From: SAR324 cluster bacterium
GTDB taxonomy: Bacteria > SAR324 > NAC60-12
NCBI GenBank assembly: GCA_029245725.1
Contig: JAQWOT010000341.1
Location: forward strand, 1 to 32,226
Direction: 5' to 3'
DNA length: 32,226 bases
Made by a program: the position numbers and the translations under genes. Shown one piece after another: positions 2,690 to 30,719 of this stretch (positions within the stretch are counted from its first letter, which is position 1; every line of letters begins with the position of its first letter). The notes under the pieces are model-generated. The model worked only from the letters and a program-made list of their open reading frames with translations, was not told the DNA's origin and did not search any database.

Positions 2690-3961
2690 ATGGCTCGGGT
2701 CTGGGTTCTGGGCGTGGGATCGTTTGCTCATGCAATGGCACAAATTTGTCGAGAAGATGGTGCCGAGGTTAATACTTACCTGACTAGAAATTATGGCCAC
2801 TATGGAGCCTCTCTTTGTGGAGAGGTTTATGAGGCCCGGAGGCATCCGCAACTGCTAACGCTCTTTGACAAACATCCACCAGATCTAGTGATCCCTATGT
2901 CAATTGATTGGCAAACCCAATCATGGGGACCTGATTTGGTACAGTGGGGTATCCCCATTCTCTCTCCGGTTAGAGAAGCTACTCGATTGGAAGTGGATCG
3001 GGATTTCGCAATGCGGCTTTGTGAGCAATACGGTATCCCAATACCACGTAGTCACTATGCTAGAAATCGTTTGGAGGCTGAAGAAATTCTTCGCAATGAT
3101 CCAAGGCCTTATGTGTTGAAAAATCCGATTTGTTCACCCTTCAGTCCAGTACATACGATTGTTTGCGAAACGGTAGAGGACACGTGGGGCTGGATAAGAT
3201 GTGTTGATTACGCAGAAGGACTTTTTCTCCAGGAGTATCTGGGAAATGTGGAAGCAGGTCACTTCGTTTTCGTGAGCAATGGCGAAATTATTAGCCAGAT
3301 CAGTAATCAGGAGTACAAGCGAGCCTTCACAGGGAACATGGGGCCTGTCGCTGGAGCTCCCTTAGGAGGGATCGTTGAGCAGGATCCTGCAGATCGGTAT
3401 GGATTAGCAAAGGATTTAATTCATCCGCTGCAACCGTGGCTAAAGAAAGTGAACTTTCACGGTCCACTGCAAGTCACTGCAATGAGGCAACAAGATCGCT
3501 GGGTACCAATTGAATATAATGTGAGAATGGGAGTGACGTCCGGTGCTCTCTGGTTACGCATGTTAGAAAATCCGGTAAAGACTTTGTGTGCTGTAGCTAA
3601 TAACCAGGCCGTCAAAACCAAATGGCGAGATTCTATCCAAGCAGGAGGAACACTCACACTGGCTGGATATGGTTATCCTTACATTGTGGAAGATGTACCG
3701 CCATTACCAGTGCGAATAGAAGGAGAGATAGACTGTGATCTCTGGTGGAATGAAGTCCGATCAGATTCACTGGGTATCTACACAGAATCCCATAAGGGCC
3801 TAGAAAAAGGGCATCGAATCGCTGATGTGAACGGCCTTGGAAAAACTGTTGAAGAGGCACTACAAAGTGCATATCAAAACATAAGTAAGCTTCACTGTTT
3901 ACATAGTTATTTTCGAACCGATATTGGTCAAACTCTTTGGCCAATTGGTGTCGGCTTTTGA
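2690..3961 (+). CDS. PurD-like ATP-grasp protein (phosphoribosylamine-glycine ligase homolog)
   Basis: The 423 residues are close to the usual PurD length and show its order: an N-terminal Rossmann-like start (VWVLGVGSFAHAMA), a central ATP-grasp region (about 105-300, with PYVLKNP and FLQEYLG), the Mg/ATP segment PIEYNVRMG, and the C-terminal domain ending in the PurD-like HRIADVNGLGKTVEEALQ and FRTDIG. PurD joins phosphoribosylamine and glycine in purine synthesis. The motif that in standard PurD reads EFNVRFGDPE is EYNVRMGVTSG here, so the Asp-Pro-Glu part is lost. It may be a diverged PurD or a paralog acting on another carboxylate and amine. It follows the MnmD-like gene by 12 bp and ends at a hairpin terminator. 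Family is secure; substrate is not. Confidence 0.75.
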   Translation: MARVWVLGVGSFAHAMAQICREDGAEVNTYLTRNYGHYGASLCGEVYEARRHPQLLTLFDKHPPDLVIPMSIDWQTQSWGPDLVQWGIPILSPVREATRLEVDRDFAMRLCEQYGIPIPRSHYARNRLEAEEILRNDPRPYVLKNPICSPFSPVHTIVCETVEDTWGWIRCVDYAEGLFLQEYLGNVEAGHFVFVSNGEIISQISNQEYKRAFTGNMGPVAGAPLGGIVEQDPADRYGLAKDLIHPLQPWLKKVNFHGPLQVTAMRQQDRWVPIEYNVRMGVTSGALWLRMLENPVKTLCAVANNQAVKTKWRDSIQAGGTLTLAGYGYPYIVEDVPPLPVRIEGEIDCDLWWNEVRSDSLGIYTESHKGLEKGHRIADVNGLGKTVEEALQSAYQNISKLHCLHSYFRTDIGQTLWPIGVGF

Positions 3962-7427: not shown

Positions 7428-7747
7428 AATAGCTTTTATCCGTAAAATGTAGTCTGGAATTTTAGTCTGCTAAGTAGGCTCTTATTCCTACTAATACGGT
7501 CTTTCCGAACTGAATTCTATAAATTGATGGAAAAATTTAGACTGGAGTGAATTAGTTTTTTCCATCTTCATGCGGAAGACTGTAAAAATTCTCTATTTGC
7601 TTATTTTCTCCCCCAAGTTGTAAAGCCCTAGCTTCATAAAATCGAGATTGTTTAAAGAGTGCTTCCAAGTATTAGCTAAAATCTAAAGTAGGTCTTGGAT
7701 ACGAGTTTTGGGGTTGGCGCAGTTGTGTCGTTTAGACAAATGAAGTA

Positions 7748-7766
7748 ATCTCCGAGATTTGGAGAT
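7748..7766 (+). promoter_or_regulatory. Hairpin covering the transposase ribosome binding site
   Basis: ATCTCC (7748-7753) pairs perfectly with GGAGAT (7761-7766) over a 7-base loop. The GGAG at 7761-7764 is the Shine-Dalgarno, 8 bases before the ATG at 7773, so the stem would hide it in the mRNA. Several insertion sequences limit transposase in this way when read from outside promoters; that this one does is inference. Confidence 0.5.
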
Positions 7767-7772
7767 CTAAGG

Positions 7773-8437
7773 ATGCAATGTCCTCACTGTGCTCATCCTG
7801 ACTCTATTCGCTATGGCACCAGCCGTGGTGTCCAACGCTACCGTTGCCAAGCCTGCCGACGGATCTTTCAGACGCTACAACGTGGCAAAGATCCAGCCCT
7901 CAAGCAACAGGCCTGTCAGCTCTATCTAGAAGGGATGGGGAGGCGAGCTATCGGCTGGGTTCTCAGGATCCATCACAAGACTCTCTCTCGCTGGTTGGTG
8001 CAAGCTGCCCAAGCACTCCCAGCAAGCCCACCACAGACCGAAGCCTGCTCCTTCATCGAAATCGATGAACTCTGCACTTTGATCGCTAAAAAAAGTCCCA
8101 ATGTTGGCTCTGGCTAGCGGTGGACTCCATCTTTGGCAAGGTTCTCGGCTTTGTCTGTGGAAGGAGGACGATCAAAACCGCTAAGGTCCTTTGGCAGCAG
8201 ATCAAGCACCTGCCGACGATGGGCTATGGCACGGACATGCTGAAGTCCTACGAGAATTTTATCCCACAGGCCAAGCATTACCCGGGAAAGACCTTCACCA
8301 CACAAATCGAATCACTCAACTGCCGACTGAGGCATTATCTAGCAAGGCTCCATCGTAAAACGCTTTGCTACAGCAAATCAAAAACGATGTTGGAAGTTTC
8401 TTTGAAACTGCTCATCTTTAAGCTAAACAACCCTTAA
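7773..8437 (+). CDS. IS1-family transposase, two frames joined by -1 frameshift
   Basis: The first frame (7773-8117) gives an InsA-like part: a zinc ribbon with Cys 3, 6, 25 and 28 (CPHC … CQAC), then a helix-turn-helix (LYLEGMGRRAIGWVLRIHH). It stops at TAG 8115-8117. The second frame starts as a possible GTG ORF at 8120 and carries the catalytic part. A -1 slip on seven A residues (8088-8094) joins them as AKKSQCWLWLAVDSIFGKVL, which restores the family pattern around the first catalytic Asp (EIDE). The later DDE residues are the Asp in YGTDML and the Glu in QIESLN, followed by RKTLCYSKS, as in InsB. The fused product is about 221 residues, close to normal for the family, so the enzyme may still be active. 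Confidence 0.85.
8088..8094 (+). other. A7 run, probable -1 ribosomal frameshift site
   Basis: In the zero frame the run reads AAA AAA AGT. Slipping back by one base gives AAG TCC CAA TGT TGG, which moves the ribosome into the catalytic frame exactly where conserved transposase residues resume. IS1 itself uses a -1 shift on an A-run. No downstream stimulator was identified. Confidence 0.65.
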
Positions 8438-8500
8438 GAACCAACGCCTCTAGATCTTTTTAATTCAAAAGCTGTTTAGTAGGAATACATACAGTTTTGA

Positions 8501-8530
8501 TTGACAATTCTAAATGGCCTGTGTGATAAA
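8501..8530 (+). promoter_or_regulatory. Candidate sigma-70 promoter for the NitT/TauT-type operon
   Basis: A perfect TTGACA (8501-8506) is followed after 18 bp by GATAAA (8525-8530, four of six consensus bases). It ends 17 bp before the ATG of the first permease and lies 55 bp outside the IS1 right end, so it belongs to the host operon. Confidence 0.45.
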
Positions 8531-8547
8531 TTGAAAAAAAAGAGAAT

Positions 8548-9309
8548 ATGAGCATCAAAAAGAATGTCAGAAGTATATTAGAACCTGCACTCTGGTTTAT
8601 TTGCTTGCTAGTCATATGGCAAATGATTGTGAAGGTATTCGAGGTGCCGATTTATGTACTGCCAGCACCGAGTGACTTCATTGAGCGTATCTGGACGGAC
8701 TACGAAAAACTTTTATCACATGGATGGATTTCGACAAAACTAATAATTTGGGGATTTTTTAGTGGAGCAATTCCAGGAATTGGTCTGGGGTATTTAATCG
8801 CTAACTTTCAATGGTGTGAAAAACTGCTCTACCCGTTGGTGGTATTTATTCAAGGATTACCCAAAATCACACTAGCCCCACTGATGTTAGTTTGGTTTGG
8901 TTTTGCGGATTTTCCAAAAATACTTTTAACAGCCTTAATCACTTTTTTCCCAGTTCTGGTTGATAGTGTAATTGGTTTTAGATGTGTAGATAAGCGAATT
9001 TATTATTTAAGTCGCTCTACAGGGGCTAATTGGTGGCAAACTTTTAGATTCATTCAACTTCCAAGTGCAGCTCCATATATTATTTCTGGTTTTAAAATCA
9101 CAATTGTGGTTGCAGTAACTGTGGTGATAGTTGTGGAGTTGTTAAATTCCCAGAATGGACTGGGATACTTGGTCTTGAGGGGAATGACTGGGAATGACAC
9201 TCCTCTCATTTTTGCAACCCTTGTGGTTGGATCTTTGATCGGCGTAATTCTAAGTTATTGCGTTGATTTAATAGATAAACTGCTACTACCCTGGCGCTCA
9301 ATAAAATGA
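8548..9309 (+). CDS. NitT/TauT-family ABC importer, permease 1
   Basis: The 253-residue inner-membrane protein belongs to the SsuC/TauC/ThiX-type permeases. It has about six hydrophobic segments (first at LWFICLLVIWQMI), the family phrase VLPAPSDF near residue 40, PKITLAPLMLVWFG in the centre, and the cytoplasmic EAA-type loop GANWWQTFRFIQLPSAAPYI that contacts the ATPase. It would form half of the channel for the substrate delivered by the binding protein encoded next (53 bp downstream). The same operon holds a second, clearly different permease (10399-11226), which suggests a heterodimeric channel rather than the homodimer usual in this family. The substrate is unknown. A possible promoter sits just upstream. 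Confidence 0.88.
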   Translation: MSIKKNVRSILEPALWFICLLVIWQMIVKVFEVPIYVLPAPSDFIERIWTDYEKLLSHGWISTKLIIWGFFSGAIPGIGLGYLIANFQWCEKLLYPLVVFIQGLPKITLAPLMLVWFGFADFPKILLTALITFFPVLVDSVIGFRCVDKRIYYLSRSTGANWWQTFRFIQLPSAAPYIISGFKITIVVAVTVVIVVELLNSQNGLGYLVLRGMTGNDTPLIFATLVVGSLIGVILSYCVDLIDKLLLPWRSIK

Positions 9310-9361
9310 GAGTTAAATTTAGTAGTAAGACAAGATTTCATTTTTAACCTTAAGGAGAAAA

Positions 9362-10369
9362 ATGTGCAATTTTTCAAAAATACTTGTTCAGATGGCACTC
9401 CTAGCTTTCTTTTCATCAGTCGCGATGTGCTTCGCAAACGCTGCTGATAAAATAAAACTGACTATGAACTGGACTGCAGATACTGCTCATCTTGGATTTG
9501 CGCTAGCCCAAAAAAATGGATATTACGCCGAAGAAGACCTTGAAGTTACTCTTGAAGAAGGTCGAGGATCTTCAGTGGCTGCTCAACTGGTAGCCACAGG
9601 ACAGTCAGAACTGGGTTATGCAGATGCCGGGGCGGCTCTGAATGTGGCTTCTAAGGGTGCTCCCATAAAAATCATATCGACTATTTGGAAGTCAGGCCAA
9701 TTTGGTATACAGTACCTTGAAAATTCGGGGATAAAGGAACCTAAGGACCTGATAGGTAAAAAACTATCCGTTCCACCTGGTTCAGCTCAAGTTCCGCTGG
9801 TACCGTTGTTTCTAAAAGCAAACGGTATAAAAGAGTCGGAAGTGGAAATTGTTTTGGCTGCCCAAAATGCTAATCTTGGTTTGCTTACTTCTGGACAGAT
9901 TGATGCTGTTGCTGAAACACCAGAAAACACTGTTGTTCCGCTTGCCGCACAGGGTATCAAGGCTGGCAACATGTACTTCTATAACCATGGTGTCCCTATT
10001 GTGAGCCTGAGTCTTATCGCAAGAGAAGACAAACTGGCCCAAAAACCGGAAGTTTACAAAAGATTTATTAGAGCAACCCTGAAGGGTTGGCAGGAGGCGA
10101 TCAAAAATCCTGAAGCTTCTGTTGATGCCCTCAAGGAGGTGTTTCCTGAGTCTCAAAAATCAAGAGATGCCTTACTTAAGAGTGCAGCTTACAGCTTTTC
10201 TTCAGCTTGCCCAGGTGGTGTAGGAGACAAACTGGGGCGCACAGAAGCGAGCACTTGGAAAACAATTGGAGAGATTTTGCAATCTGTTGGGAAACTTGAG
10301 TCCAGTAAGCCGATTACTGCTTACTTCACCAACGATTTTCTTCCAAGTACTTCCGTAAATTGTCCCTAA
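9362..10369 (+). CDS. NitT/TauT-family ABC importer, substrate-binding protein (NMT1/ThiY-like)
   Basis: This is a 335-residue periplasmic protein with a signal peptide (residues 1 to about 27, ending FANA before ADKIKLTMNW). The mature start KLTMNWTADTAHLGFALAQKNGYY and the phrases EEGRGSSVAAQLVATGQ and ELGYADAG are typical of the NMT1/THI5-like fold that binds pyrimidine precursors, sulfonates, nitrate or other small organic molecules. The sequence does not say which. AAGGAG (9352-9357) lies 4 bases before the ATG, a slightly short spacing; a later Met would lose the N-terminal charge of the signal, so the first ATG is preferred. It lies between the two permease genes. No THI-box riboswitch was seen upstream, which argues weakly against a thiamine-precursor role. 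Confidence 0.88.
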   Translation: MCNFSKILVQMALLAFFSSVAMCFANAADKIKLTMNWTADTAHLGFALAQKNGYYAEEDLEVTLEEGRGSSVAAQLVATGQSELGYADAGAALNVASKGAPIKIISTIWKSGQFGIQYLENSGIKEPKDLIGKKLSVPPGSAQVPLVPLFLKANGIKESEVEIVLAAQNANLGLLTSGQIDAVAETPENTVVPLAAQGIKAGNMYFYNHGVPIVSLSLIAREDKLAQKPEVYKRFIRATLKGWQEAIKNPEASVDALKEVFPESQKSRDALLKSAAYSFSSACPGGVGDKLGRTEASTWKTIGEILQSVGKLESSKPITAYFTNDFLPSTSVNCP

Positions 10370-10398
10370 TTCAAAGCGATGCGCTAGCCTGAAAACTA

Positions 10399-11226
10399 GT
10401 GCATCACAATCTTCATTATCAATTGAATTATCTTCAAGTAACTCCCCCAAAAAGTAGTTTAAAAATTAGACTGCAGGTAAATTGGGTCAGTAGTTTAATT
10501 TATCCAACAATTTCTGTAATTATTTTTCTAAGTATATGGGAATTGTTAGTCTGGTTTTTTGAAGTCCCACTTTGGTTAGTCCCAAAACCTTCAGATTTTT
10601 TGAATCGCTTTTTCTCTGATTTTTCAATAATTGCTAATCATGGTGCAGCTACATCTATTACCATCATTAGCGGTTTTTTGTTAGGTATATTTGTCGCTGT
10701 ACCTTTAGCATTGCTGATTGTATCTTCAGATTTCTTACAGCGGGGGCTCTATCCAGTAATTGTTTTTCTTAATATTATGCCAAAAACAGTTATCGGACCA
10801 ATTCTGATTGTTTGGTTTGGAATCGGGCCTCTTGCCGCAGTTATTATTGTTTTTTTAATGTGTTTTTTCCCGATATTAGTAGACAGCATGTCCGGATTTA
10901 GAGCTGTAGATTCAAAATTATTTTACATAACTAAATCAATGGGAGCGACAAGTTGGCAGAATTTTTACTACATTCGTTTACCTGCGTCATTACAACATAT
11001 TTTTGGAGGGATGCGTATTGGAATTGTAAAGGCAGTTGAAGGTGTTATGATAGCTGAATTTATATCTTCAAACGAAGGCCTCGGATTTATGATAATGAGA
11101 GCTTCAAGTTTCATGGACATGACCTTACTTTTCAGCGGACTAATTGCAGCAGCATTAGTCGCCCTACTTTTCAACTCTCTCTTATTGACAATTGAATGGC
11201 TAATGATTCCATGGAAACACCAATAG
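10399..11226 (+). CDS. NitT/TauT-family ABC importer, permease 2
   Basis: A second permease of the SsuC/TauC type, 275 residues, with a first membrane segment at about 35-55 (LIYPTISVIIFLSIWELLVW), the phrase LVPKPSDFLNR, the core PKTVIGPILIVWFGIG, and the EAA-type loop KSMGATSWQNFYYIRLPASL. It is homologous to permease 1 (8548-9309) but diverged throughout, so this is an old duplication and not a recent copy. The called start is GTG at 10399 with no good Shine-Dalgarno. The first 25 or so residues look unlike membrane-protein leader sequence, so the true start may be further in. The ATPase gene follows 36 bp downstream. Together these genes make a full importer. Confidence 0.85.
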   Translation: MHHNLHYQLNYLQVTPPKSSLKIRLQVNWVSSLIYPTISVIIFLSIWELLVWFFEVPLWLVPKPSDFLNRFFSDFSIIANHGAATSITIISGFLLGIFVAVPLALLIVSSDFLQRGLYPVIVFLNIMPKTVIGPILIVWFGIGPLAAVIIVFLMCFFPILVDSMSGFRAVDSKLFYITKSMGATSWQNFYYIRLPASLQHIFGGMRIGIVKAVEGVMIAEFISSNEGLGFMIMRASSFMDMTLLFSGLIAAALVALLFNSLLLTIEWLMIPWKHQ

Positions 11227-11262
11227 GAGTCCATAAACATTGAGAATCAATAGTGTGTGTAA

Positions 11263-12102
11263 ATGATTGAGTTAGCAAATACAAATTACAATTTGGCTTC
11301 AGATGCTCCCTCCAAATCAATCGAGTTTGGTGCCTCCATCCGCGCAAGCGGAATAACAAAAATCTATGGTAATGATCAAGATGCTTTTCATGCATTGGGG
11401 CCTATTGATCTTGAAATTAAATCAGGAGAATTCGTCAGCCTTATCGGCCCATCTGGTTGTGGAAAAAGTACTACACTGCTGATTGTCTCTGGACTTGAAA
11501 AAGTCAGTCAGGGCTATGTTGAAATAAATTCTGAACCACTATCTAGACCGATCTCAGAGGTTGGGATTGTCTTTCAAGATCATTTGCTTCTAGAATTTAG
11601 GACAGCAATCCGAAATGTCATGCTGCAGCAGGAGATTCGTGGGCTGAATCGCAAAGAATATCAAGAAAAAGCGAATAATCTTTTTGAAAAATTGGGGCTA
11701 AAAGGCTTCGAGAATAAATATCCAAAACAACTTTCTGGAGGAATGCGCCAAAGGGTCTCAATTGCCAGAGCTTTAATTCACAACCCATCTATGCTTTTGA
11801 TGGATGAACCATTCGGGGCATTGGATGCTATAACTCGGACTCAAATACGGCATGACCTGGAAATTCTTTGGCTTGAGACGAAAAAAACTGTTCTTTTCAT
11901 AACTCATTCTATTGAGGAAGCAGTTGGACTCTCCGACAGAGTACTTGTTATGTCAACCAGTCCAGGCAAAATTATTGATGAAATCAAAATAGATCTTCCC
12001 CGCCCAAGACCAGCACACCTTGGTGATTATCCAGAGTTCAGTTCATATAGTAAAAGAATTTATAACATTTTTGAGAGGCTTGGAATCTACCGCTTCAAGT
12101 GA
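11263..12102 (+). CDS. NitT/TauT-family ABC importer, ATP-binding protein
   Basis: The 279-residue ATPase shows every nucleotide-binding motif: Walker A GPSGCGKST (62-70), Q-loop VFQDHLLLEFR, signature LSGGMRQRVSIARAL, Walker B MLLMDEPFGALDA and H-loop FITHSIEEAV. It matches the SsuB/TauB type, which energises import with the two permeases just upstream. The N-terminal 25 residues before the usual start (GITKIYG) are longer than in many homologs, so an inner start is possible; no strong ribosome binding site marks either. The end, RPRPAHLGDYPEF, is typical for this family. The AroE-like gene begins 29 bp later, so it is likely part of the same transcript. Confidence 0.9.
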   Translation: MIELANTNYNLASDAPSKSIEFGASIRASGITKIYGNDQDAFHALGPIDLEIKSGEFVSLIGPSGCGKSTTLLIVSGLEKVSQGYVEINSEPLSRPISEVGIVFQDHLLLEFRTAIRNVMLQQEIRGLNRKEYQEKANNLFEKLGLKGFENKYPKQLSGGMRQRVSIARALIHNPSMLLMDEPFGALDAITRTQIRHDLEILWLETKKTVLFITHSIEEAVGLSDRVLVMSTSPGKIIDEIKIDLPRPRPAHLGDYPEFSSYSKRIYNIFERLGIYRFK

Positions 12103-12131
12103 CCTTATTAAAGAAAAAGCCAGAATAAATT

Positions 12132-12917
12132 ATGAAAAATTTTGTTATGATTGGAGCACCTGTAACTTATGTTAGAACTCCTGATCTGTTAAAGGATCAT
12201 TTTAAAAACAGGGGTATTGAAGTAAAAATTGATGCCAAGCATGTAGAGTCGTCTGATCTTGAGAACTTCATGAGTTTCATGAAGAATAATTTGGCTATCG
12301 ACGGTTTGCTGGTGACAATGCCACATAAAAAGTCAGTTTTAAAATACTTAACGAACTTATCCAAAACTTCCCTTCTTTTAGGAAGTGTCAATACTATCAA
12401 AAGAATAAATTCAGGAGGGCTTGCGGGGACTCAGTTTGATGGAATAGCGCTTGTAAATGCACTTTCCAAATTCGGAGTTCCCCTCAAAGAAATAAGCATA
12501 CTTTTAGCTGGTGCAGGTGGTGCCGGTACTGCAATTGCCCTGGCATTGTCAGAACACTGTAAAATGCTTACTATTACAGAAAAAGACAGTGAACTCGCAT
12601 TGTCCTGCATTTCAATGCTTGCAAAGCACAGCGATGGAAATTTTAAATACTTGGCTGGTGCAGATATTAAGAAAACACATTATGACCTTCTCATAAATGC
12701 TACCCCTCTCGGCATGCGTGAAAAAGATCCAAGTCCATTTGATGATGAATTAATTTCGAGGGCAGATTGGGTTGCAGATATTGTTTACGATCCCCCGGTG
12801 ACTAAATTGGGTTTGACCACCGAGAAATTAGGGAAATCCCTGATCAGTGGTCGTGACATGGTTAGAGGACAAATTGAACCAATTGCTGATTGGTTGTTGG
12901 ACTGCGAGGCAACATAA
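12132..12917 (+). CDS. Shikimate dehydrogenase-like (AroE family) oxidoreductase
   Basis: At 261 residues it has the AroE family plan. The N-terminal catalytic domain has VTMPHKK (catalytic Lys at 66 or 67), GSVNT (Asn 87) and QFDG (Asp 103). The NAD(P) domain has GAGGAGTA (127-134), INATPLGM and DIVYDPPVTKL. AroE reduces 3-dehydroshikimate to shikimate. However, the SxSP substrate-binding motif expected near residues 13-17 is VRTP here, and NTD is FD. The two serines that hold the shikimate carboxylate are thus not kept, and the real substrate is probably different. It sits at the end of the NitT/TauT-type operon, which suggests it acts on the imported compound. It is convergent with the next gene, with 19 bp between their stops. 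Confidence 0.8.
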   Translation: MKNFVMIGAPVTYVRTPDLLKDHFKNRGIEVKIDAKHVESSDLENFMSFMKNNLAIDGLLVTMPHKKSVLKYLTNLSKTSLLLGSVNTIKRINSGGLAGTQFDGIALVNALSKFGVPLKEISILLAGAGGAGTAIALALSEHCKMLTITEKDSELALSCISMLAKHSDGNFKYLAGADIKKTHYDLLINATPLGMREKDPSPFDDELISRADWVADIVYDPPVTKLGLTTEKLGKSLISGRDMVRGQIEPIADWLLDCEAT

Positions 12918-12936
12918 TTAATGCAAGTACTAAGTT

Positions 12937-13614
12937 TCAAGAATTCTGTTTCCTAAGTTCATATTCCAATCGATAAGTTCCTGGCGCCCTCAATACTTTC
13001 AATCCATCTATTTGTGCTATAGATGCTGAAAATTCTTTGCAAACATTAAGTAGTGCTTGAGCCCAACCTGATTCAATAATTACTACCAGATCTGGTACTT
13101 CATTGGTATTGGACCTAGCTTTTCTTTCAGAAGTCTCTTTGTTGCTAGCTTCCAAATCAACAATACATAAATGGACACCGCAAACCAAAGAATTTTGCAT
13201 TTCAATTTTCTTGAGTAGATTAGTTGTTTCATCAATTATTTGATTGTTTGCATCAAACTGAAATCCAGCAACGATTATGTTGCCACCTTCACCCATTGAT
13301 TTAGAATAATGTAATCTGGTAAGGCCACGTGTAACATTATAGAAATCTTTTACTGTATCAATCGTAAGTGGTGTTGGTTTGTTGAGCCTTTCCAAATAAT
13401 TATTACTCTGTAAAACATCCATAGAAGTTGTTTCGTACAAAGTAAACCATTCAACTTCAGCATCCTGTCTTATAAATCTTCTACCTCTCAAAAAACCCGG
13501 GATATTGACACGTTCAGGTATATGTTCACTATCGTGCCAAAAATAAAATTTCTCTCTAGCTGCCCAGCGTATGTCGTTCCAGATCGCAATCACACCATTA
13601 CCCATTAAACTCAT
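12937..13614 (-). CDS. Unidentified protein, possible ferredoxin-like alpha/beta-barrel fold
   Basis: I do not recognise a named family. The 225 residues have no signal peptide or membrane segment. The first half (IWNDIRWAAREKFYFWHDSEHIPER, then VEWFTLYE) resembles the strand and WHDxEHIPER helix of dimeric alpha/beta-barrel proteins such as EthD-like enzymes. The second half (about 112-220) has a similar strand-helix rhythm and may be a second copy of the fold. An AAGG ribosome binding site lies about 10 bases before the ATG. It is convergent with the AroE-like gene, so it has its own promoter in the gap 13615-13982. A role in breaking down the compound imported by the neighbouring operon is possible but unproven. 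Confidence 0.7.
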   Translation of the reverse strand: MSLMGNGVIAIWNDIRWAAREKFYFWHDSEHIPERVNIPGFLRGRRFIRQDAEVEWFTLYETTSMDVLQSNNYLERLNKPTPLTIDTVKDFYNVTRGLTRLHYSKSMGEGGNIIVAGFQFDANNQIIDETTNLLKKIEMQNSLVCGVHLCIVDLEASNKETSERKARSNTNEVPDLVVIIESGWAQALLNVCKEFSASIAQIDGLKVLRAPGTYRLEYELRKQNS

Positions 13615-13982: not shown

Positions 13983-15395
13983 CTAAAATGTTTTTCGAAT
14001 TTTGTGTCTGATCTTTGTGAGAGTCCGGATAAAATTATTGCGGAGCTTCTCTTGTCGTAGGTGTTGTTGATTGATGACATACCATCGACCATTGACTAAA
14101 GTTGTCATAATACTTGAAATGTCTGAAGTATAGACAATAGTAGAAAGTCGATGGCTCTTCGGTGATGCAGACAGCAATGGTTGGGATGCATCATATACTA
14201 CAGCATCGAAAGGCTCACCTACAGATAGTGGTTGATCAGAATATCCAGTGGCAGCACGTCCATGCAGTATAGCTTGCTTCAACGCAATTTCCCCACCTTC
14301 ATCAGAACCTTCAAAACAATAGGCGTTGCGCTTTTGATGACGCAACCTTTGTCCATAGTCTAACCAACGCAATTCCTCGCATGGATTGAGGCTAATGTGA
14401 CTGTCTGTACCAATACTCCATCGCCCTCCAGATTGCATGAAGGCACGCAAACTAAAAAAGCCGTCGCCAAGATTTCCTTCAGTCGATGGGCAGATTACAA
14501 CATGGGCCTTCGAACGAGCTAGCTGCTGTACTTCTTCACCATTCATATGAGTGGCGTGAACTAAATGATAGTTTTCTCCGAGATAAATATTTTGTAGTAA
14601 CCAAGTGATCGGTCTATTACCAAGAAACTGTTGGGCTTCTACAACTTCTTTTTGTTGCTCAGCTACATGAATGTGTCTAGGCACTTTTGCAGGAACTGAT
14701 TCGAGAATTTCGCAAATGGCCGGAGGGGAAGCCGCACGCAAAGAGTGAATTCCCATACCGAGCTTTGAATTGGCGGTGTTATCTACAAGTTTTTTGGTTT
14801 GAGAGAGCAGGTCGAGATAGTCATGTGCTGTTGGGGAGATAAAACGTCTTTGGTGAGGGTTCGTTTGGCCCTGAAATCCGCCTCTCTGGTAAAAGATTGG
14901 AATGAGTGTGAGCTTAATACCTGTTGATTGGGCAGCATTCAGTAATGCTTGCCCCATTGCGGCCTTTTCTTCGTATGAAGAACCGTCAAGATTGTGATGT
15001 AAATAATGAAATTCGGCGACAGCAGTGTATCCGTGACGGAGCATCTCAGCGTAGAGCATTGCCGCAATATCCTCCATCTCCTCTGGTGAAATAATGTTTG
15101 CGAGTTGATACATTGCCTCTCGCCAGCTCCAAAAATCATCTTCTGCACTATGATATGGGAGATTTTCTGCAAGGCCCGCCAAAGCATACTGAAAGGCATG
15201 CGAATGAGCATTGTTATGCCCTGGTATTGCAAAACCCCTGATTCTTTCTATCGGTTCTTGAGTCTTGGATTCTTCAGAAATTGAAAGAATACGCCCCTCT
15301 GAATCAAGCTGTACAAATGCTGGTTCAAACCATTGCCTTGTATCCCAAAGAGCCTCAAAACAAAGGTTTATCCTAAAATCAGGTTGGTTATGCAT
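13983..15395 (-). CDS. hutF: Formimidoylglutamate deiminase
   Basis: The 470-residue protein belongs to the amidohydrolase superfamily. HutF hydrolyses N-formimino-L-glutamate to N-formyl-L-glutamate and ammonia in histidine breakdown. Metal-site residues are visible: the HSH pair in PGHNNAHSHAFQ (residues 64-66), a further His in VAEFHYLHHN, the His in RHIHVAEQQ, and the Asp in IGTDSHISLNPCEELRWLDYGQRL. The phrase CPSTEGNLGDGFF is a strong HutF signature. Length is normal for the family. hutG lies 22 bp upstream on the same strand, giving the order hutG-hutF. No hutH, hutU or hutI is in the window, so the first steps must be encoded elsewhere. The reading is confident. Confidence 0.93.
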   Translation of the reverse strand: MHNQPDFRINLCFEALWDTRQWFEPAFVQLDSEGRILSISEESKTQEPIERIRGFAIPGHNNAHSHAFQYALAGLAENLPYHSAEDDFWSWREAMYQLANIISPEEMEDIAAMLYAEMLRHGYTAVAEFHYLHHNLDGSSYEEKAAMGQALLNAAQSTGIKLTLIPIFYQRGGFQGQTNPHQRRFISPTAHDYLDLLSQTKKLVDNTANSKLGMGIHSLRAASPPAICEILESVPAKVPRHIHVAEQQKEVVEAQQFLGNRPITWLLQNIYLGENYHLVHATHMNGEEVQQLARSKAHVVICPSTEGNLGDGFFSLRAFMQSGGRWSIGTDSHISLNPCEELRWLDYGQRLRHQKRNAYCFEGSDEGGEIALKQAILHGRAATGYSDQPLSVGEPFDAVVYDASQPLLSASPKSHRLSTIVYTSDISSIMTTLVNGRWYVINQQHLRQEKLRNNFIRTLTKIRHKIRKTF

Positions 15396-15417
15396 GCTGG
15401 TTCTTGTAGCAGTAAAT

Positions 15418-16239
15418 TCAAATGTGGATTTTGAGTTGGCTTGCTAGAGCTATGAGAGTTTTGATTAAAATTTTTCTTATCTTATCAGCTTGATCTGGGA
15501 GATAGGTTGAAGTTTCCTCATCCATGTAAATTGACTTTGCCATTTCAAGTTGAAGTGCATGAACACCTTGTTGAGGATTACCGTGGTGACGAGTTATATA
15601 TCCTCCCTTGAACGGATCATTTTCAAGAAAGTCATAGGACTTGTCTTCTGAAAGATGAGAAACAGCGACCCTGATTAGCTCAGCGGAAGCACTGTAACCA
15701 TTTTGGTTTCCTAAAATCAGGTCAGGGAATGGGTCTTCTCGAATGGTAGGAACAGATTTACGTATAGAATGAGCATCCCATAACAGAACATGAGGAAAGG
15801 TTTGCTGGAGTTGCTGGAGTTCTTCCTGCAGTCGGAGGTGATACGGATGAAAATAGCGCTCTCTGCGAAGTTGGATATTGTCATCTGTAGGAGGCGCTCG
15901 AGAGTATAATGGTTGCCCAAAGAAAGTATGTGTAGGAACGATTTGAGTTATCGCACGACCATCCTCATAGAGTGGCTTTCCCGCAGGATCCCGATTGAGA
16001 TCGATCACATATCGACTATACTGTGCAACGATCATTGTGATACCTAGTGCAGGAGCAAAGTCGTAAAGTTGGTCCACAAACCAGTCTGTGTCATCTGGAT
16101 ACTGGAGATGCTTTTGATCGAATTGTTTGTAGAGATCCTCTGTAAAAAGTGTTCCACAGTGTGGAACACTCAAAAGAATAGGAAGTCGATGTTTGTTAGG
16201 CCGAATAATCTTGTAGGCTGGGGGATGTACTTTCATCAA
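15418..16239 (-). CDS. hutG: N-formylglutamate deformylase
   Basis: At 273 residues the protein has the expected length. HutG hydrolyses N-formyl-L-glutamate, the product of HutF, to glutamate and formate. Family phrases are clear: LLSVPHCG near residue 23, DDTDWFVDQLYDF, YVIDLNRDP, LWDAHSIRKSVP, DLILGNQNG and LQLEMAKSIYMDE; the His residues and Asp-Glu clusters form the zinc site. Two Met codons stand at the start (MMKV); the first is taken. It leads a two-gene operon with hutF (22-bp gap) and is divergent from the Dpp-type importer across a 439-bp gap. This pair marks the five-step histidine pathway through formylglutamate rather than the formamide-releasing HutG/HutE type. Confidence 0.93.
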   Translation of the reverse strand: MMKVHPPAYKIIRPNKHRLPILLSVPHCGTLFTEDLYKQFDQKHLQYPDDTDWFVDQLYDFAPALGITMIVAQYSRYVIDLNRDPAGKPLYEDGRAITQIVPTHTFFGQPLYSRAPPTDDNIQLRRERYFHPYHLRLQEELQQLQQTFPHVLLWDAHSIRKSVPTIREDPFPDLILGNQNGYSASAELIRVAVSHLSEDKSYDFLENDPFKGGYITRHHGNPQQGVHALQLEMAKSIYMDEETSTYLPDQADKIRKILIKTLIALASQLKIHI

Positions 16240-16678
16240 CTCTTTCTAGTTGAAGCTTAATTCAAAGAGATAGGACACAACTAAACTTTTGATGCTGTTG
16301 TGGACAAAATACTCAGATTTGCTTGATGAGTCATCATAGTAGATCAAAAGAAATGGCAATCAGTTGTCATTTGACCCATTGTTTTGGCAAGTTCTAGCAT
16401 ATTGTTTTTACCTCAGTTAGCTCAGCACTGCAGGCCTCAGTGTCATGTTCGCCAGGCTTTTGTTCACTACATTCAGCAAAGTATTTTATTAGAATTTGGG
16501 GCAGTAGTTTGTAAAGGTTTACTATCGTCTGATTGCATAATTCTATCCGAGAGTCGAACATTTAGAGTTGGAAAGGTCTTGACCCCAAAAAAAGATTGAG
16601 CGATCTTTGCGTCGAACGGCATTAGAATTCGTCAATGCCGTCTCATTCTCTTAATCAACGTGAAAAATGGAGAAAACC
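16240..16678. promoter_or_regulatory. Divergent control region, hutGF and Dpp-type operon, with leader hairpins
   Basis: The 439-bp gap holds no convincing gene. Two perfect hairpins lie just before the importer: AAAGAT-TGAGCG-ATCTTT (16591-16608), and ACGGCATT (16616-16623) paired with AATGCCGT (16634-16641), 37 bp before the preferred start codon. A 5-bp dyad CACTG…CAGTG (16426-16442) encloses AGGCCT. A weak promoter-like pair is TTGACC (16371-16376) and TAGCAT (16395-16400), 18 bp apart. The hairpins could act as operators or as mRNA leader structure; neither is followed by a T-run. Confidence 0.45.
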
Positions 16679-18220
16679 ATGAAGCGATCTTTGCTTGCAG
16701 TAGCCTGTATGCTAATAGGACTTTCAACGACGAATGCCGCACAGACAACTCTAAACGTGGGCATGGGATCTGCCGATGCAGGGAAATTAGATCCGCATCT
16801 TGCTACGACAACGCCTGACAAGGGGCTTTTGCACTGGATGTATAACGGTCTTGTCCGAATTAAACCCGGACAAGCCAGCCCAAAGTTTATTGAGCCAGAC
16901 CTGGCCGAGAGCTGGACCTCATCAGCTGATGGTCTAACTTGGACATTCAAGCTTCGCAAAGGTATACAGTGCCATGGCAAGTACGGTGAGTTTGACGCTG
17001 AAGACGCAGTTTTTTCTATTCAGCGAGCAGCCAATAAGGATACATCCAGTTTCGCAAAAGATTTTGGCGCCGTCGGTAGTGTTGAAGCAACCGGTTCGTA
17101 TGAAGTCAAAATCACTTTGACAGAACCTGTGCCGAGTCTGTTGGGTCTGCTAGTACCGTATCACGGTGGCAATATGGTCTGTAAGGACGCTGTCGAGGAT
17201 TTAGGGGAAGACTACCAGCGCTCCCCGATTGGTACTGGACCTTTTATGTTTGCTGAATATCAGCCACAGCAGTACGTAAAACTGGTTTCAAATGAAGATT
17301 ATTTTAGAGGGGCGCCCAGGATCAAGGAGATCTATTACCGTTACATCCCATCCGATGCAAGCCGCGACTTGGCATTCCAGTCTGGGGAGATTGACCTGAT
17401 CTATGGGAAACAGGATCAGACCTGGGTAGATCGCATCAAGAAGATTCCAAACACTGAGGTAGTAGTGATGGAGCCTGGTGAAATGTCTGTCATTCATCTT
17501 AATATGACAATGCCCCCTCTTGATAATCCACTGGTTCGCCAGGCTGTTGCTCATGCCATCAATCGCGATTTGATGGTTCAATTTAAGGGTCCAGGAGTTA
17601 CCCGTAAGTCTGTCTCAATTGTTCCGGAAGGATATCTAGGCTACACCGACGATATCACTAGATACCCACATGACCCAGCAAAGGCAAAAGCACTACTCGC
17701 GGAGGCTGGTTTTCCAAATGGTGTGACGCTGAAGACAATTCACACCACACTCTCAGGGATGCTCTCGACCATGGAGGCAGTGCAGGCTACACTAAAAGAA
17801 AGCGGGATAAATCTTGAGATCACAACTGTTGAACATGCCACTTTCCATGCACAAATCCGTAAGGATCTCTCACAAGTGGTTCACTATTCAGCAGCACGTT
17901 TCCCAATTGCTGATGTATATTTAACCCAGTTTTTTGATAGTGCGTCAATCGTCGGTACACCTACAGCAGTAACCAACTTCTCACACTGCAATGTCGCAGA
18001 CGCTGAGATCCGAGCGGCCAGGGTTGAGTCTGATAGTACAAAGCAGTTGGCACTTTGGAAGACAGCACAGCAAAAGATCACAGACATGGTCTGTGCTGTG
18101 CCCATCTTTCAGAACCTGCAGCTTTGGGCTTGGAAGTCCTCACTTGATCTTGGAGTTAACGTAAAGGGTTCTCTCAACCTTAGTCCACCGGTTACTGAGA
18201 AAGCATATTTCAAGAACTGA
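16679..18220 (+). CDS. Dpp/Opp-type ABC importer, substrate-binding protein
   Basis: A periplasmic binding protein of the SBP_bac_5 family (DppA/OppA type) for peptides, opines, amines or related compounds. I use the ATG at 16679 because GGAG (16669-16672) lies 6 bases before it; the longer frame from 16667 would overlap that site. The 513-residue product has a signal peptide MKRSLLAVACMLIGLSTTNA, cleaved before AQTTLNVGMG. Typical features are LDPHLATTTPDKGLLHWMYNGLV, the WTFKLRKGIQCH strand and SPIGTGPFMF. There is no lipobox Cys, so it is soluble in the periplasm. The permease gene follows 74 bp downstream across a hairpin. The neighbours hutGF and an amine oxidase suggest an amino-acid-derived substrate. 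Confidence 0.9.
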   Translation: MKRSLLAVACMLIGLSTTNAAQTTLNVGMGSADAGKLDPHLATTTPDKGLLHWMYNGLVRIKPGQASPKFIEPDLAESWTSSADGLTWTFKLRKGIQCHGKYGEFDAEDAVFSIQRAANKDTSSFAKDFGAVGSVEATGSYEVKITLTEPVPSLLGLLVPYHGGNMVCKDAVEDLGEDYQRSPIGTGPFMFAEYQPQQYVKLVSNEDYFRGAPRIKEIYYRYIPSDASRDLAFQSGEIDLIYGKQDQTWVDRIKKIPNTEVVVMEPGEMSVIHLNMTMPPLDNPLVRQAVAHAINRDLMVQFKGPGVTRKSVSIVPEGYLGYTDDITRYPHDPAKAKALLAEAGFPNGVTLKTIHTTLSGMLSTMEAVQATLKESGINLEITTVEHATFHAQIRKDLSQVVHYSAARFPIADVYLTQFFDSASIVGTPTAVTNFSHCNVADAEIRAARVESDSTKQLALWKTAQQKITDMVCAVPIFQNLQLWAWKSSLDLGVNVKGSLNLSPPVTEKAYFKN

Positions 18221-23542: not shown

Positions 23543-24355
23543 TCACTGGAAAAAAAGAAAAATAATAATCGTAGGCAAGCTAGCAACTAAAGAGAGCGCG
23601 CCCTGAACTCCCCAAGCAACAGTATACTGTCCACGTAAATTAACAATTCCAATCATAATTGTTCTTTTTTCGTCAGACTGGGTGAAGATGAGAGGCCAAA
23701 GAAAATCATTCCAAATCCAAGTAAATTGTAGGGTGGCTAAAACAGCCAACGCTGACAAACTTAATGGCATAACAATTTTTGTTAGAATTTGCCATTCATT
23801 CGCCCCATCTAGTATGGCAGCTTCACGTACTTCAATGGGAATTGTTGAAAAAAAGTTGCGCATTAACAAACTACAAATTGGAATTCCCAACGCAGTATGA
23901 ACAAGAAAAATTGGCCAAAGTGTATCGATCAGACCAATACTGTTAAACAGTCGGAATAGCGGAATTAATATTACTTGAGGAGGAAAAAACATTCCCGAAA
24001 CAAGAATCAGAAATAGTATTTCACTTCCATGAAAGGGCAATTTTGCAAAAACATAGCCTGCTAAGCTACCAAGTACAATAGATGCAAAGGTTGCTGGAAC
24101 AGTTACTAGTAATGTATTTATAAAATATTGACCAACAGCAGGATTGTTAAAGACTTCAACATAATTTCCAAAATAAAGTTCACTAGGAATTCTCCATAGT
24201 TCTCCTAGAGCAATGTCCCTTGTAGTTTTAATCGATGATAATAAAACACCAACTGTGGGAGCTAAAAAAAGAATTGATAAAATCAATAGAACAATAAAGA
24301 TTACAACTGGCCAAGAATGAATACCTGAGTCATAAATTTTTTTATAGCCAAACAT
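23543..24355 (-). CDS. Carbohydrate ABC importer, permease MalG-like, C-terminus cut by a stop
   Basis: A 270-residue inner-membrane permease of the MalG/UgpE type with about six membrane segments, PPQVILIPLFRLFNSIGLIDTLW, the EAA-type loop EVREAAILDGANEWQILTKIVMPLS, and WIWNDFLWPLIF. Family members end in a tail like QRYFVRGLTAGAVKG. Here TGA (23543-23545) follows FFQ where Arg (CGA) is usual, and the frame beyond still codes YFIKGMTMGAVKG up to TAG at 23501-23503. One C-to-T change thus seems to remove the last 14 residues. Function may be reduced or kept; a sequencing error is also possible. It is the third gene of the importer operon, 90 bp after the MalF-like gene. Confidence 0.85.
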   Translation of the reverse strand: MFGYKKIYDSGIHSWPVVIFIVLLILSILFLAPTVGVLLSSIKTTRDIALGELWRIPSELYFGNYVEVFNNPAVGQYFINTLLVTVPATFASIVLGSLAGYVFAKLPFHGSEILFLILVSGMFFPPQVILIPLFRLFNSIGLIDTLWPIFLVHTALGIPICSLLMRNFFSTIPIEVREAAILDGANEWQILTKIVMPLSLSALAVLATLQFTWIWNDFLWPLIFTQSDEKRTIMIGIVNLRGQYTVAWGVQGALSLVASLPTIIIFLFFQ

Positions 24356-24445
24356 TTAAATTTTTAAAGAAATTTATTGAATTTCAATTTGAGATATAAC
24401 TTTTTCTAACTAATTAAAAATTTAGAATACTAATTTTATTTATCA

Positions 24446-25366
24446 CTAACCATAAATCTGATCAAACTTCCGAAGTTGCCTAAAATAAATTCCAATAATG
24501 ATCAATGCAATCAAAAATAAAACTACTGAGATACTACTTCCATATCCAATAAGATATTTTTTAAAACTCTCATTGTACATATGCATTGCCAAAGTATCAG
24601 ATGAATTAAAGGGTCCTCCCCCAGTCATGATGTATAAAATATCAAAACCCTTCAATGAATTAATAACAGAGAGTGCTATGACAACAACAGTTGATGGAAC
24701 AAGTAGAGGTATGACTATATACCATATTCGCTGCCATGTCGTAGCACCTTCACTCACACTACTTTCAAGTATTTCAGACGGAATTGCAGTGAGTCCAGCA
24801 AGATAAATGACCATTGATAACCCTGTCTGTTGCCAAGACCAAGCAATAATCACCGAGAAAAGAGCACTATCTGGCTTCGCAAGCCATGCGTAACGAAAAC
24901 GATCTCCAGTGATCTCTTCAATAAATGTGTTGAGTAGTCCCCAGTTTGGTTGATAGATCCAGATCCAGATTTGTCCCACGACAATAGCTGAAAGGCAGAT
25001 GGGTAGATAAAAGATCGTTTTAAAGAATTTTCCACCACGAACTTTTGAGTCAAGTAAAAGGGCTAGTACAAGACCCAGTAAAGTTGGTAGTAGTAGTGCT
25101 GAAACCATCCAAATGATGGTATTTATTGTTGCCTGAAAAAACAGACGATCTGTCCAGATCTTTTGAAAATTACCTAATCCTACAAACTGATAGTTACTAC
25201 TGAAGCCGTTCCAGTTTGTAAAACTATAGTAAAATGAACTAAGGAGAGGCCAGACGATTAAGACAGAAAATACGAGAAGTGGGGGTGTAAGGAGGACGAT
25301 TCGCCAGAAGCGTTTATCGCGTTCCATGCTAGCTTTGGTTCGCGGAGTCCAAGAAGGACCCCGCAT
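24446..25366 (-). CDS. Carbohydrate ABC importer, permease MalF-like
   Basis: The 306-residue inner-membrane protein is of the MalF/UgpA type: first membrane segment IVLLTPPLLVFSVLIVWPLLSSFYYSFTNW, FVGLGNFQKIW, a middle section with IFYLPICLSAIVVGQIW, and the EAA-type loop SSVSEGATTWQRIWYIVIPLLVPS. GFDILYIMTGGGP is a strong family phrase. The frame opens at ATG 25366, but 13 hydrophilic residues precede a second Met (25327) that matches the usual start better; neither has a clear ribosome binding site. It begins 23 bp after the binding-protein gene. It forms the channel with the MalG-like protein. Confidence 0.9.
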   Translation of the reverse strand: MRGPSWTPRTKASMERDKRFWRIVLLTPPLLVFSVLIVWPLLSSFYYSFTNWNGFSSNYQFVGLGNFQKIWTDRLFFQATINTIIWMVSALLLPTLLGLVLALLLDSKVRGGKFFKTIFYLPICLSAIVVGQIWIWIYQPNWGLLNTFIEEITGDRFRYAWLAKPDSALFSVIIAWSWQQTGLSMVIYLAGLTAIPSEILESSVSEGATTWQRIWYIVIPLLVPSTVVVIALSVINSLKGFDILYIMTGGGPFNSSDTLAMHMYNESFKKYLIGYGSSISVVLFLIALIIIGIYFRQLRKFDQIYG

Positions 25367-25389
25367 GTTGGAGTTAATTCAGCTTCTTC

Positions 25390-26658
25390 TCATTCTTTGA
25401 ATGCACCGGCAACATCTTGTGCTGTTTGCTTCATGATTTCATCAACACCTGAAGGATCATCCATAAATCGGGCAAACATCGACAAGCCAACTTCAGCTAC
25501 TGGAGGTGGAGTTGCTAAATCATAGTTGAATGCAAAAGCATCTGAGTTTTTAACAGTCTCAAAAGCTTTCAACATTACAGAATTGTAATTTGATGCATCA
25601 ACATTGACATTCGCTGACAGGGCACCTTGAGCTTTGCTCCAGGCGGCTTGCACCCCAGTATCAGAAACCATAAACTTCAGAAATTCCTCTGCTCCCCTCG
25701 GGTTAGTAGTATTTGCTCCAATTACTAAACCATCTACAGGACCCACCGATGCTGAAGGAACCCCAGCCATGATGCTTGGGAATGGGAAGAAGTCATAATC
25801 TGCTCCTGGGACTAGGCCAAGGCCATTCCAGTAACCCGTAATCCATGTCCCCATCAAAGTCATCGCCGCATCACCTCTTGCAACCTGGTCTGAGGCATCA
25901 GTCCATGTGTTTGCGTTCGCATTTTCCACGAAATACCCTGCATCAACCAACGCCTTCCACATCCCCATAGCCAGTTTAACTTGGGGATCATCATAGGATG
26001 CTTTCCCAGCCATCAATTGAGTTCGATAGTCTGGGCCTGCACTGCGTAATAACAGGTAATCAAACCAAAACTGAGCTGGCCACCGATTCTTTGAGCCTAA
26101 GGCAATCGGAGTGATTCCTTTCGACTGCAACTCTTTACAAAGAGCAAGAAATCCATTCCAGTCGGTAGGCATTTTGGTAATTCCTGCATCTGCCATCACC
26201 TTGGTGTTATAAAACATTCCTGAGTAATGGTAGTTAAATGGTACCAGAAACCTTTTGCCATTGTACATAGTTGCACTGTCTGCCACCGTTTTGGCAACAA
26301 TCTTATCCAATCCAGCTTCATTCCACATTTGGTCAATGGGCCTTAGGCTATCAGAATCCGCAATAAACTGAACTCTTGCACCTGCCCAGTAACTGAAGAC
26401 ATCAGGAAGGCTGCTTCCAGATGCTCGAACCAGAATATCTGTTTTGAAATCTTCGTGACCAACAGGGCTGTTTTTCATTTTATAGCTTGTTGCGGCCTCG
26501 AACTTTTCCATTTGCTCACCGAAAGCCTTCAGCCCTAACTCGCCAGTAAAGTAGTGACTAATTGTTACTTCACTTTGTGCTAGGGCTGGTGTGGTCAAGC
26601 AAATGAAGGGTAGTGCGAATAAAGTTCCCAGAAGTGTACGGCGATTGATGTATTTCAT
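25390..26658 (-). CDS. Carbohydrate ABC importer, substrate-binding protein
   Basis: An extracellular solute-binding protein family 1 member (sugar type). I start it at ATG 26658, because a perfect AGGAGG (plus-strand 26666-26671) lies 7 bases before it; the frame open to 26709 adds a cysteine-rich stretch unlike a leader. The 422-residue product has a signal peptide MKYINRRTLLGTLFALPFICLTTPALA, with twin Arg, cleaved before QSEVTISHYF. Features include DILVRASGSSLPDVF, YNTKVMADAGITKMPTDWNGF, GDAAMTLMGTW and the aromatic residues that stack on sugars. It is first in the operon and divergent from the IclR gene. No ATPase gene is in the window, so a shared MsmX/UgpC-type ATPase is likely. Confidence 0.9.
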   Translation of the reverse strand: MKYINRRTLLGTLFALPFICLTTPALAQSEVTISHYFTGELGLKAFGEQMEKFEAATSYKMKNSPVGHEDFKTDILVRASGSSLPDVFSYWAGARVQFIADSDSLRPIDQMWNEAGLDKIVAKTVADSATMYNGKRFLVPFNYHYSGMFYNTKVMADAGITKMPTDWNGFLALCKELQSKGITPIALGSKNRWPAQFWFDYLLLRSAGPDYRTQLMAGKASYDDPQVKLAMGMWKALVDAGYFVENANANTWTDASDQVARGDAAMTLMGTWITGYWNGLGLVPGADYDFFPFPSIMAGVPSASVGPVDGLVIGANTTNPRGAEEFLKFMVSDTGVQAAWSKAQGALSANVNVDASNYNSVMLKAFETVKNSDAFAFNYDLATPPPVAEVGLSMFARFMDDPSGVDEIMKQTAQDVAGAFKE

Positions 26659-26716
26659 GAGATCTCCTCCTGAGTTAAAGTTGTCTTCTGTCAAACAAAA
26701 ACAGTACACGCCGCTT

Positions 26717-26745
26717 ATCTAAGCAGGGAGTTTTTGTGCTGTCAA
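26717..26745 (-). promoter_or_regulatory. Candidate sigma-70 promoter for the carbohydrate importer operon
   Basis: On the minus strand, a perfect TTGACA (plus-strand 26740-26745) is followed after 17 bp by TTAGAT (plus-strand 26717-26722, three of six consensus bases). Transcription would start about 50 bp before the binding-protein ATG at 26658. Confidence 0.45.
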
Positions 26746-26841
26746 TTAAATTATTGTTCTGGGCAACAAATGTGTGTGAAAATAATGAAAGTTTATAAAA
26801 GTTTCGAAAAAATTGCCCTATATTAAACAATTTGTACAACA

Positions 26842-26891
26842 CTATCAAACCTTTTTGTAATTAGAGCTTGGTCTTCTTTGTTGTTTGATAG
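26842..26891. promoter_or_regulatory. 9-bp inverted repeat in the divergent control region
   Basis: CTATCAAAC (26842-26850) and its exact complement GTTTGATAG (26883-26891) are 41 bp apart centre to centre, about four helical turns, placing both on the same DNA face. They lie between the importer operon and the IclR gene. Paired sites for the IclR-type regulator are possible; the regulator's binding site is not known. Confidence 0.35.
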
Positions 26892-26955
26892 ATATAGCTG
26901 TTCAGAAGAGTAAACGGAATTAATGGCAAAACTTACAAAATTTGATCAGGCATAG

Positions 26956-30649: not shown

Positions 30650-30719
30650 ATTATCTTGAAAGTAGTTTTATGGCTAGGGTTTGAACAGAGAATGGTATTT
30701 AAACTAAAATTTCAAAAAA

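Follow-up and report, generated by a model that had tools for sequence, protein, structure and literature searches.

In the shikimate dehydrogenases (AroE) of T. thermophilus and M. tuberculosis, Ser14 and Ser16 form hydrogen bonds to the carboxylate of shikimate, and Thr60, Lys64 and Asn85 to its hydroxyls, as given in PMC2789096. Data on AroE-like enzymes are limited, according to PMC7144000, and PMC7954740 offers, in 5-ketofructose reductase, a precedent for an AroE fold acting on a sugar. Other described relatives of the fold are YdiB (structures 1npd and 1o9b) and C. glutamicum QSDH (3jyo). A further relative is the Pseudomonas putida KT2440 protein of structure 4k28, which we take to be RifI2; its structure presumably contains bound NAD+, the protein reportedly oxidises shikimate weakly with NAD+, and a shortened C-terminus is said to define the RifI2-like class.

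Here we compare with these systems an AroE-like gene, at 12132-12917, in a stretch of 32,226 nucleotides from a SAR324 cluster bacterium (hereafter the window).

An importer operon that ends in an AroE-fold gene

The AroE-like gene is the last + strand gene of an operon with the order perm1-SBP-perm2-ATPase-AroE and intergenic gaps of 29-52 bases, the position that a sequence-only reading of this DNA had given it. The NMT1/THI5-type importer is complete, with an NMT1 binding protein, two permeases and an ATPase all present by Pfam. The features of the region are as follows, with identities to the related loci L052, L053 and L056 described below.

7706..8449, + strand: IS1-like multicopy element (bounds approximate, from repeated match)
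8548..9309, + strand: ABC permease 1 (SsuC/TauC type; BPD_transp_1); 67% to Agrobacterium pAt, 68-70% to L052/L053/L056
9362..10369, + strand: NMT1/THI5-type substrate-binding protein (NMT1 157.8 bits); 72% to L052 and L053, best segment
10399..11226, + strand: ABC permease 2 (Pfam); 63-68% identity to L052/L053/L056
11263..12102, + strand: ABC ATPase (Pfam); 77% identity to L052/L053/L056
12132..12917, + strand: AroE-fold (shikimate dehydrogenase family) dehydrogenase of the VRTP / QFDG class; ATG start, 261 aa, intact (Pfam, structure, tree)
12937..13614, - strand: tandem ferredoxin-like (dimeric alpha+beta barrel) protein, convergent to the AroE-like gene (predicted structure)

The contig belongs to the genome, since one of its genes, 2690-3961, has counterparts of 96-99% identity in three of the genus's five other genomes. 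None of these five (68-93% complete) yielded the operon; their matches are confined to the upstream IS copy, a stretch around 16380-17000 and dispersed short segments. Among 383 genomes searched at E<=1e-40, the binding protein was present only in its own genome and absent from the other 382, and its best relatives, at 72%, are alphaproteobacterial. GC content over 8001-13000 is 0.38-0.42, near the window mean of 0.42 and well below the 0.62-0.66 of the relatives. The operon probably came from alphaproteobacteria by horizontal transfer, or is shared with them.

The IS1-like element ends ~100 bases ahead of perm1, at the place where L052, L053 and L056 carry an IclR-type regulator gene. We found no IclR remnant upstream of the window operon; significant IclR similarity within the window was limited to the gene at 26956, far downstream. 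Scans for promoters and terminators gave results at chance level. The element has dozens of full or partial copies in its own genome and genus, and it accounts for most of the 41 matches to the query region in its own genome.

Several other features of the window lie outside the operon. Adjoining the module, 13983-16239 encodes a HutF-like formimidoylglutamate deiminase and a HutG-like N-formylglutamate amidohydrolase. At 23543-32204 lie genes for a sugar ABC importer, an IclR-type regulator, a Gfo/Idh/MocA dehydrogenase, a large TPP enzyme that we take to be IolD-like, and an aldehyde dehydrogenase, several of these being named by reading only; this part of the contig looks like inositol or cyclitol catabolism. 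At 112-1963, a tRNA-Arg is flanked by a tandem pair of similar proteins (257 and 282 aa) that look secreted or outer-membrane-like, the first of which has no Pfam family.

The AroE-like protein belongs to a distinct motif class

The protein encoded by 12132-12917 matches Shikimate_dh_N (PF08501) with 61.3 bits, above the gathering cut-off of 27. Alignment with canonical AroEs showed that T62, K66, N87, D103 and Q247 are retained, consistent with the earlier statement that the catalytic Lys, Asn and Asp (K66, N87 and D103) are kept. The alignment also bore out the reported motif changes: the SxSP site reads V14-R15-T16-P17 and the NTD ([NSC]TD) site Q101-F102-D103. The claim that the shikimate-binding serines are missing holds only for the first, which is replaced by Val; the second is replaced by Thr16, which preserves the hydroxyl. 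In addition, the Asn two residues ahead of the Thr in TxPxK is Leu60, the NADP+ motif NRT is replaced (aligned residues T149-E150-K151-D152), and the C-terminal tail extends 14 residues past Gln247, compared with 29 in the canonical AroE of the same genome (C200).

We then tabulated these positions in 41 importer-linked AroE-fold proteins of other genomes (41 of 42 genes, one of the two L072 AroE genes being omitted) and in 29 canonical AroEs (C200 and the 28 rows that best fitted it among 32 loci from genome searches). All 41 importer-linked proteins have V/A/I-x-[ST]-P and FD, whereas all 29 canonical proteins have [ST]-x-S-P and TD. Columns 14, 60 and 102 share no residue between the two sets; at column 60, the Asn before TxPxK is found in 29/29 canonical and 0/41 importer-linked proteins. 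By contrast, T62, K66, N87, D103 and Q247 are present in all 70. Since both the first-Ser and the NTD-Thr changes occur in every tabulated importer-linked relative, a chance origin of these changes is excluded. Loss of SxSP marks a class, without excluding shikimate-like substrates.

The cofactor column, occupied by E150 in the window protein, is D or E in 33 of the 41 importer-linked proteins; in the canonical set it is D in 3/29 and N in 26/29. Glu150 is the residue from which we infer that the window protein is probably NAD+-dependent. One group of the importer-linked class (A1) retains the Asn-Arg-Thr cofactor motif, so NAD+ use is not uniform over the class.

The nearest orthologues, in L052, L053 and L056, have AroE identities of 51, 47 and 43% to the window protein and conserve VR[ST]P / QFDG. 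This conservation bears on whether the window gene is a decaying or non-functional copy with a drifted motif, as the adjoining multicopy IS element and the lack of the operon in the congeners might suggest. The reading frame is intact, the catalytic residues are retained and the motifs are the same in three orthologues at 43-51% identity; we therefore rejected a drifted pseudogene, which we regard as extremely improbable.

Fold and phylogeny

A structure predicted for the AroE-like protein from 36 of the 43 available alignment rows had a pLDDT of 94.8. The top fold match was 4k28 (Z 32.3, rmsd 2.1 over 255), although its lead is small, with the next rows at Z 31.2, which counts against the interpretation favoured below. 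Identities were 20-29% over the 50 Foldseek matches listed. By sequence, the best PDB matches were the AroEs 1nvt and 3don, with 4k28 third.

The window protein and 4k28, whose motifs are VKSP and NVD, both have V-x-[ST]-P instead of SxSP, lack the NTD Thr and carry an acidic residue in the cofactor column. They differ in that identity over the structural alignment is 24%, the window protein has QFD where 4k28 has NVD, and the two are not sisters in the tree. Canonical AroEs (C200, E. coli 1nyt and T. thermophilus 2d5c) have the same fold and the same active-site T, K, N, D and Q as the window protein, in which SxSP, the Asn before TxPxK, the NTD Thr and NRT are replaced and the C-terminal tail is shorter. 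The fold is likewise that of YdiB and QSDH, whose NAD+ use the window protein would share; however, it scores far under the cut-offs of the corresponding models (PRK12749, 53.7 against 349 bits; PRK14027, 62.2 against 515 bits). The 5-ketofructose reductase structure 7cok also has the AroE fold, with a sugar rather than shikimate as substrate; it differs in its 23% identity over the structural alignment, and the NADPH-bound structure 7col belongs to that enzyme.

In a maximum-likelihood tree of 78 rows, from which nine near-copies were omitted, canonical AroEs fall on one side with 100/100 support. The other side holds the window protein, 4k28, a further AroE-like protein of the same genome (C83) and the importer-linked proteins, with an inner order that is not fixed, apart from a clade of the window protein with L052, L053 and L056 (100/100).

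The genome has three AroE-fold genes, one of them canonical

The sequence-only reading had proposed a search for a housekeeping aroE elsewhere in the genome, and had named a sole AroE that restores growth of an aroE mutant as the finding that would refute its view. The genome contains three AroE-fold genes: 12132-12917, C200 and C83. The C200 copy is canonical, with S-L-S-P and NTD, and has a methionine adenosyltransferase gene (605.4 bits against a cut-off of 309.4) in its vicinity. Because this canonical copy exists, aromatic biosynthesis does not depend on the window copy. That the window gene duplicates C200 as a further biosynthetic AroE might be read from the curated models, among which the best matches of the window protein are AroE models, but it scores 138.1 bits against the TIGR00507 cut-off of 200.2, has lost the motif and lies across the tree from the canonical AroEs. 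We rejected this explanation on these grounds and give it next to no credence.

The third copy, C83, lacks both SxSP (F-K-A-P) and NTD (M-F-D), and the four of the 32 genome-search loci that did not fit C200 fitted this copy. Immediately upstream of it is a full-length gene for a QuiC-like 3-dehydroshikimate dehydratase (619 aa), whose match of 597.7 bits covers almost all of the QuiC model but stays below the cut-off of 1200; this protein has AP_endonuc_2 and HPPD domains. Downstream of C83 is an HpaI-like aldolase (306.5 of 368.8 bits). The QuiC-like gene, the AroE-like gene without SxSP and the HpaI-like aldolase gene thus stand in series (L106 1151-4695, G000:C83). This row of three genes is likely a catabolic shikimate/quinate locus.

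Since C83 without the motifs adjoins a QuiC-like gene, motif loss need not mean loss of shikimate-type substrates. The window protein might accordingly be a catabolic shikimate/quinate dehydrogenase, in which case shikimate or quinate would enter through the importer and bind despite the altered motif. T62, K66, N87, D103, Q247 and the hydroxyl at position 16 are retained, and the 4k28 protein reportedly has weak shikimate activity. Against this, the first Ser is Val and the Asn is Leu, and a tblastn search of the window, L052, L053 and L056 with the Agrobacterium TIM barrel and a portion of the QuiC-like protein next to C83 found no dehydratase-like gene (best E 0.74), although one may be elsewhere in those genomes. 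In PMC2789096, both serines at 14 and 16 bond the shikimate carboxylate. Overall, we consider a shikimate or quinate substrate unlikely, without dismissing it. Of the earlier proposal that the enzyme works on an imported acid other than shikimate, the importer link is conserved (see below), but a non-shikimate substrate is not established, given C83 and 4k28.

The importer and the AroE-like gene are linked across loci

A scan of a contig collection with the binding-protein alignment returned 44 loci, of which 43 (mean length 18.9 kb) were counted after removal of L095, a duplicate of the L050 record. Gene content was determined by tblastn with annotated reference genes, ORF clustering having been dropped because of antisense ORFs in GC-rich loci. 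Class-level and phylum-level searches gave an identical 52 genomes, which were counted once. The plasmid records L046-L051, chosen because they matched, stand outside the counts. A contig scan with the AroE protein alone gave no relative; its six short patterns differed from the conserved motifs.

An AroE-fold gene lies within the available stretch in 39 of the 43 loci, which were selected by the binding protein alone and are interrelated, hence not independent events. The chance expectation is ~0.02 AroE-fold genes per 21 kb locus, with a background of 92 Shikimate_dh_N matches, linked ones included, in ~107.7 Mb of 22 of these genomes. The AroE gene is complete in 38 of the loci, and 42 have either a complete AroE gene or a complete homologue of 12937-13614; the four loci with no AroE-fold gene in the available stretch are L055, L060, L089 and L093. 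The AroE-like gene immediately follows the ATPase in only five loci (L052, L053, L056, L082 and L092). We conclude that the link between the importer and the AroE-like gene is real and conserved.

The gene clusters fall into three types:

Type W (the window, L052, L053 and L056, the last three alphaproteobacterial): perm1-SBP-perm2-ATPase-AroE
Type A (Agrobacterium): importer with a TIM barrel, two AroEs, an FG-GAP protein and the DHDPS family; ribokinase in the plasmid records
Type C (Caballeronia/Bosea/Aureimonas): MaoC, enoyl-CoA hydratase, CoA-transferase and FAH, with IclR and LacI regulators

The best plasmid relatives of the binding protein are from Agrobacterium (six records, 54-56% identity); in one of these, L046, identities for perm1, SBP, perm2 and ATPase are 67, 56, 63 and 74%. 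In four Agrobacterium plasmid records, a TIM barrel gene and two AroE-fold genes come after perm1-SBP-perm2-ATPase (domains tested in L046); the TIM barrels of the larger clusters are DHDPS and AP_endonuc_2. Of the 43 loci, 33 have MaoC, 32 enoyl-CoA hydratase, 28 CoA-transferase and 16 FAH. For the 2,4-didehydro-3-deoxy-L-rhamnonate hydrolase model, the L049 FAH reaches 399.9 of 500 bits; together with the DHDPS and AP_endonuc_2 TIM barrels it belongs to a set of sugar-acid-type enzymes that favours the interpretation given below. Because the AroE-fold gene of types A and C is accompanied by catabolism-type enzymes, we suggest that there it oxidises a hydroxyl to a ketone en route to central metabolism. 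The accompanying enzymes vary over the three cluster types, so the substrate may vary too.

In L046, the gene at 15561-16388 is annotated 'ThiF family adenylyltransferase'. It scores 68.8 bits for Shikimate_dh_N and 26.8 for ThiF, below the cut-off of 28.1, and copies in L047, L048 and L051 also match the window AroE. By these scores, the 'ThiF' name is a database misannotation of a predicted AroE-fold protein. Separately, on a Paraburkholderia plasmid (L034 3523-8526) a gene related to the window AroE lies behind an ABC importer of the branched-chain amino-acid type, and the AroE-like/importer pairing thus also occurs with another importer family.

A conserved neighbour with a ferredoxin-like fold

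A homologue of the 12937-13614 protein is present in 30 of the 43 importer loci and absent from 13. Within type W, the window has this gene in convergent orientation, and L052, L053 and L056 have it upstream on the opposite strand. Pfam, NCBIfam and PHROGs gave no family for the protein at E<=0.001, and Pfam none at E<=1; DUF4286 appeared at E 0.013-0.046 in three of six relatives scanned. Its profile matched no PDB sequence at E<=1.

The predicted model (pLDDT 95.3) has a tandem ferredoxin-like fold, as do sulfur oxygenase reductase (Z 16.1, rmsd 3.1 over 205) and the anthrone-oxidase-like 5f9p (Z 16.0, rmsd 3.2 over 204), although identity to these proteins is only 6-11%. Columns invariant in 31/31 neighbour-family proteins include W12, W26, H27, E30, H31, P33, E34, R35, Y60 and E61; of these, W26 to R35 make up the motif W-H-x-x-E-H-x-P-E-R, and Y60 and E61 the Tyr-Glu pair. 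Because of these invariant residues, the protein is probably an enzyme. The iron ligands of sulfur oxygenase reductase are His86, His90 and Glu114 (PMC7398979); by analogy, H27-x3-H31 and E61 could possibly form a two-His, one-carboxylate metal site, which we offer as a lead only.

Discussion

Our preferred interpretation, to which we assign a probability of roughly 0.58, is that the 12132-12917 protein is an NAD+-dependent dehydrogenase of the SDH family that serves a dedicated NMT1/THI5-type importer as part of an uptake-and-catabolism module. The binding protein would deliver a small polyhydroxylated compound, perhaps a sugar acid, a cyclitol acid or a cyclic hydroxy-acid, and the dehydrogenase would oxidise one secondary hydroxyl to a ketone with NAD+, with Lys66 and Asp103 as the putative acid-base pair and Glu150 selecting NAD+. 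The ferredoxin-fold protein may then act on the product, by isomerisation, dehydration or oxidation, and the remainder of the compound would flow into ordinary metabolism.

The nearest solved structures to the binding protein are 4nmy, ThiY (3ix1) and THI5. ThiY and THI5 are thiamin-pyrimidine proteins, which do not indicate a polyol and so count against our interpretation. They raise the alternative that a heterocyclic or aromatic compound, for instance a pyrimidine of the thiamin type, is imported, and that a hydroxymethyl group or a hydroxyl on its ring is the target of the dehydrogenase. However, NMT1 is a broad family, with taurine and sulfonate proteins in the same match list, and no gene in the six annotated records is annotated for thiamin, the 'ThiF' name in four of them belonging to an AroE-fold protein (tested in L046). 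We regard such a substrate as improbable.

More broadly, and only tentatively, the loci in the window, alphaproteobacteria and betaproteobacteria may represent an undescribed nutrient-use module that combines an NMT1-type importer, a new subclass of AroE-fold NAD+ dehydrogenases and a new family of tandem ferredoxin-fold enzymes, and that takes up and degrades a compound with no known bacterial pathway. We found no description of such an importer/AroE-like cluster in the set of open-access articles searched. Genes of this class are often named 'shikimate dehydrogenase' in public records, and others 'hypothetical protein', though the first Ser is replaced in 41/41 importer-linked proteins. The importer provides a direct handle, in that whatever ligand its binding protein takes should reveal the compound; the smallest set to assay is the two-enzyme form of the window, L052, L053 and L056. 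If our interpretation is true, the range of substrates accepted by the AroE fold would widen, and a so far unannotated family of ferredoxin-fold proteins would gain a function.
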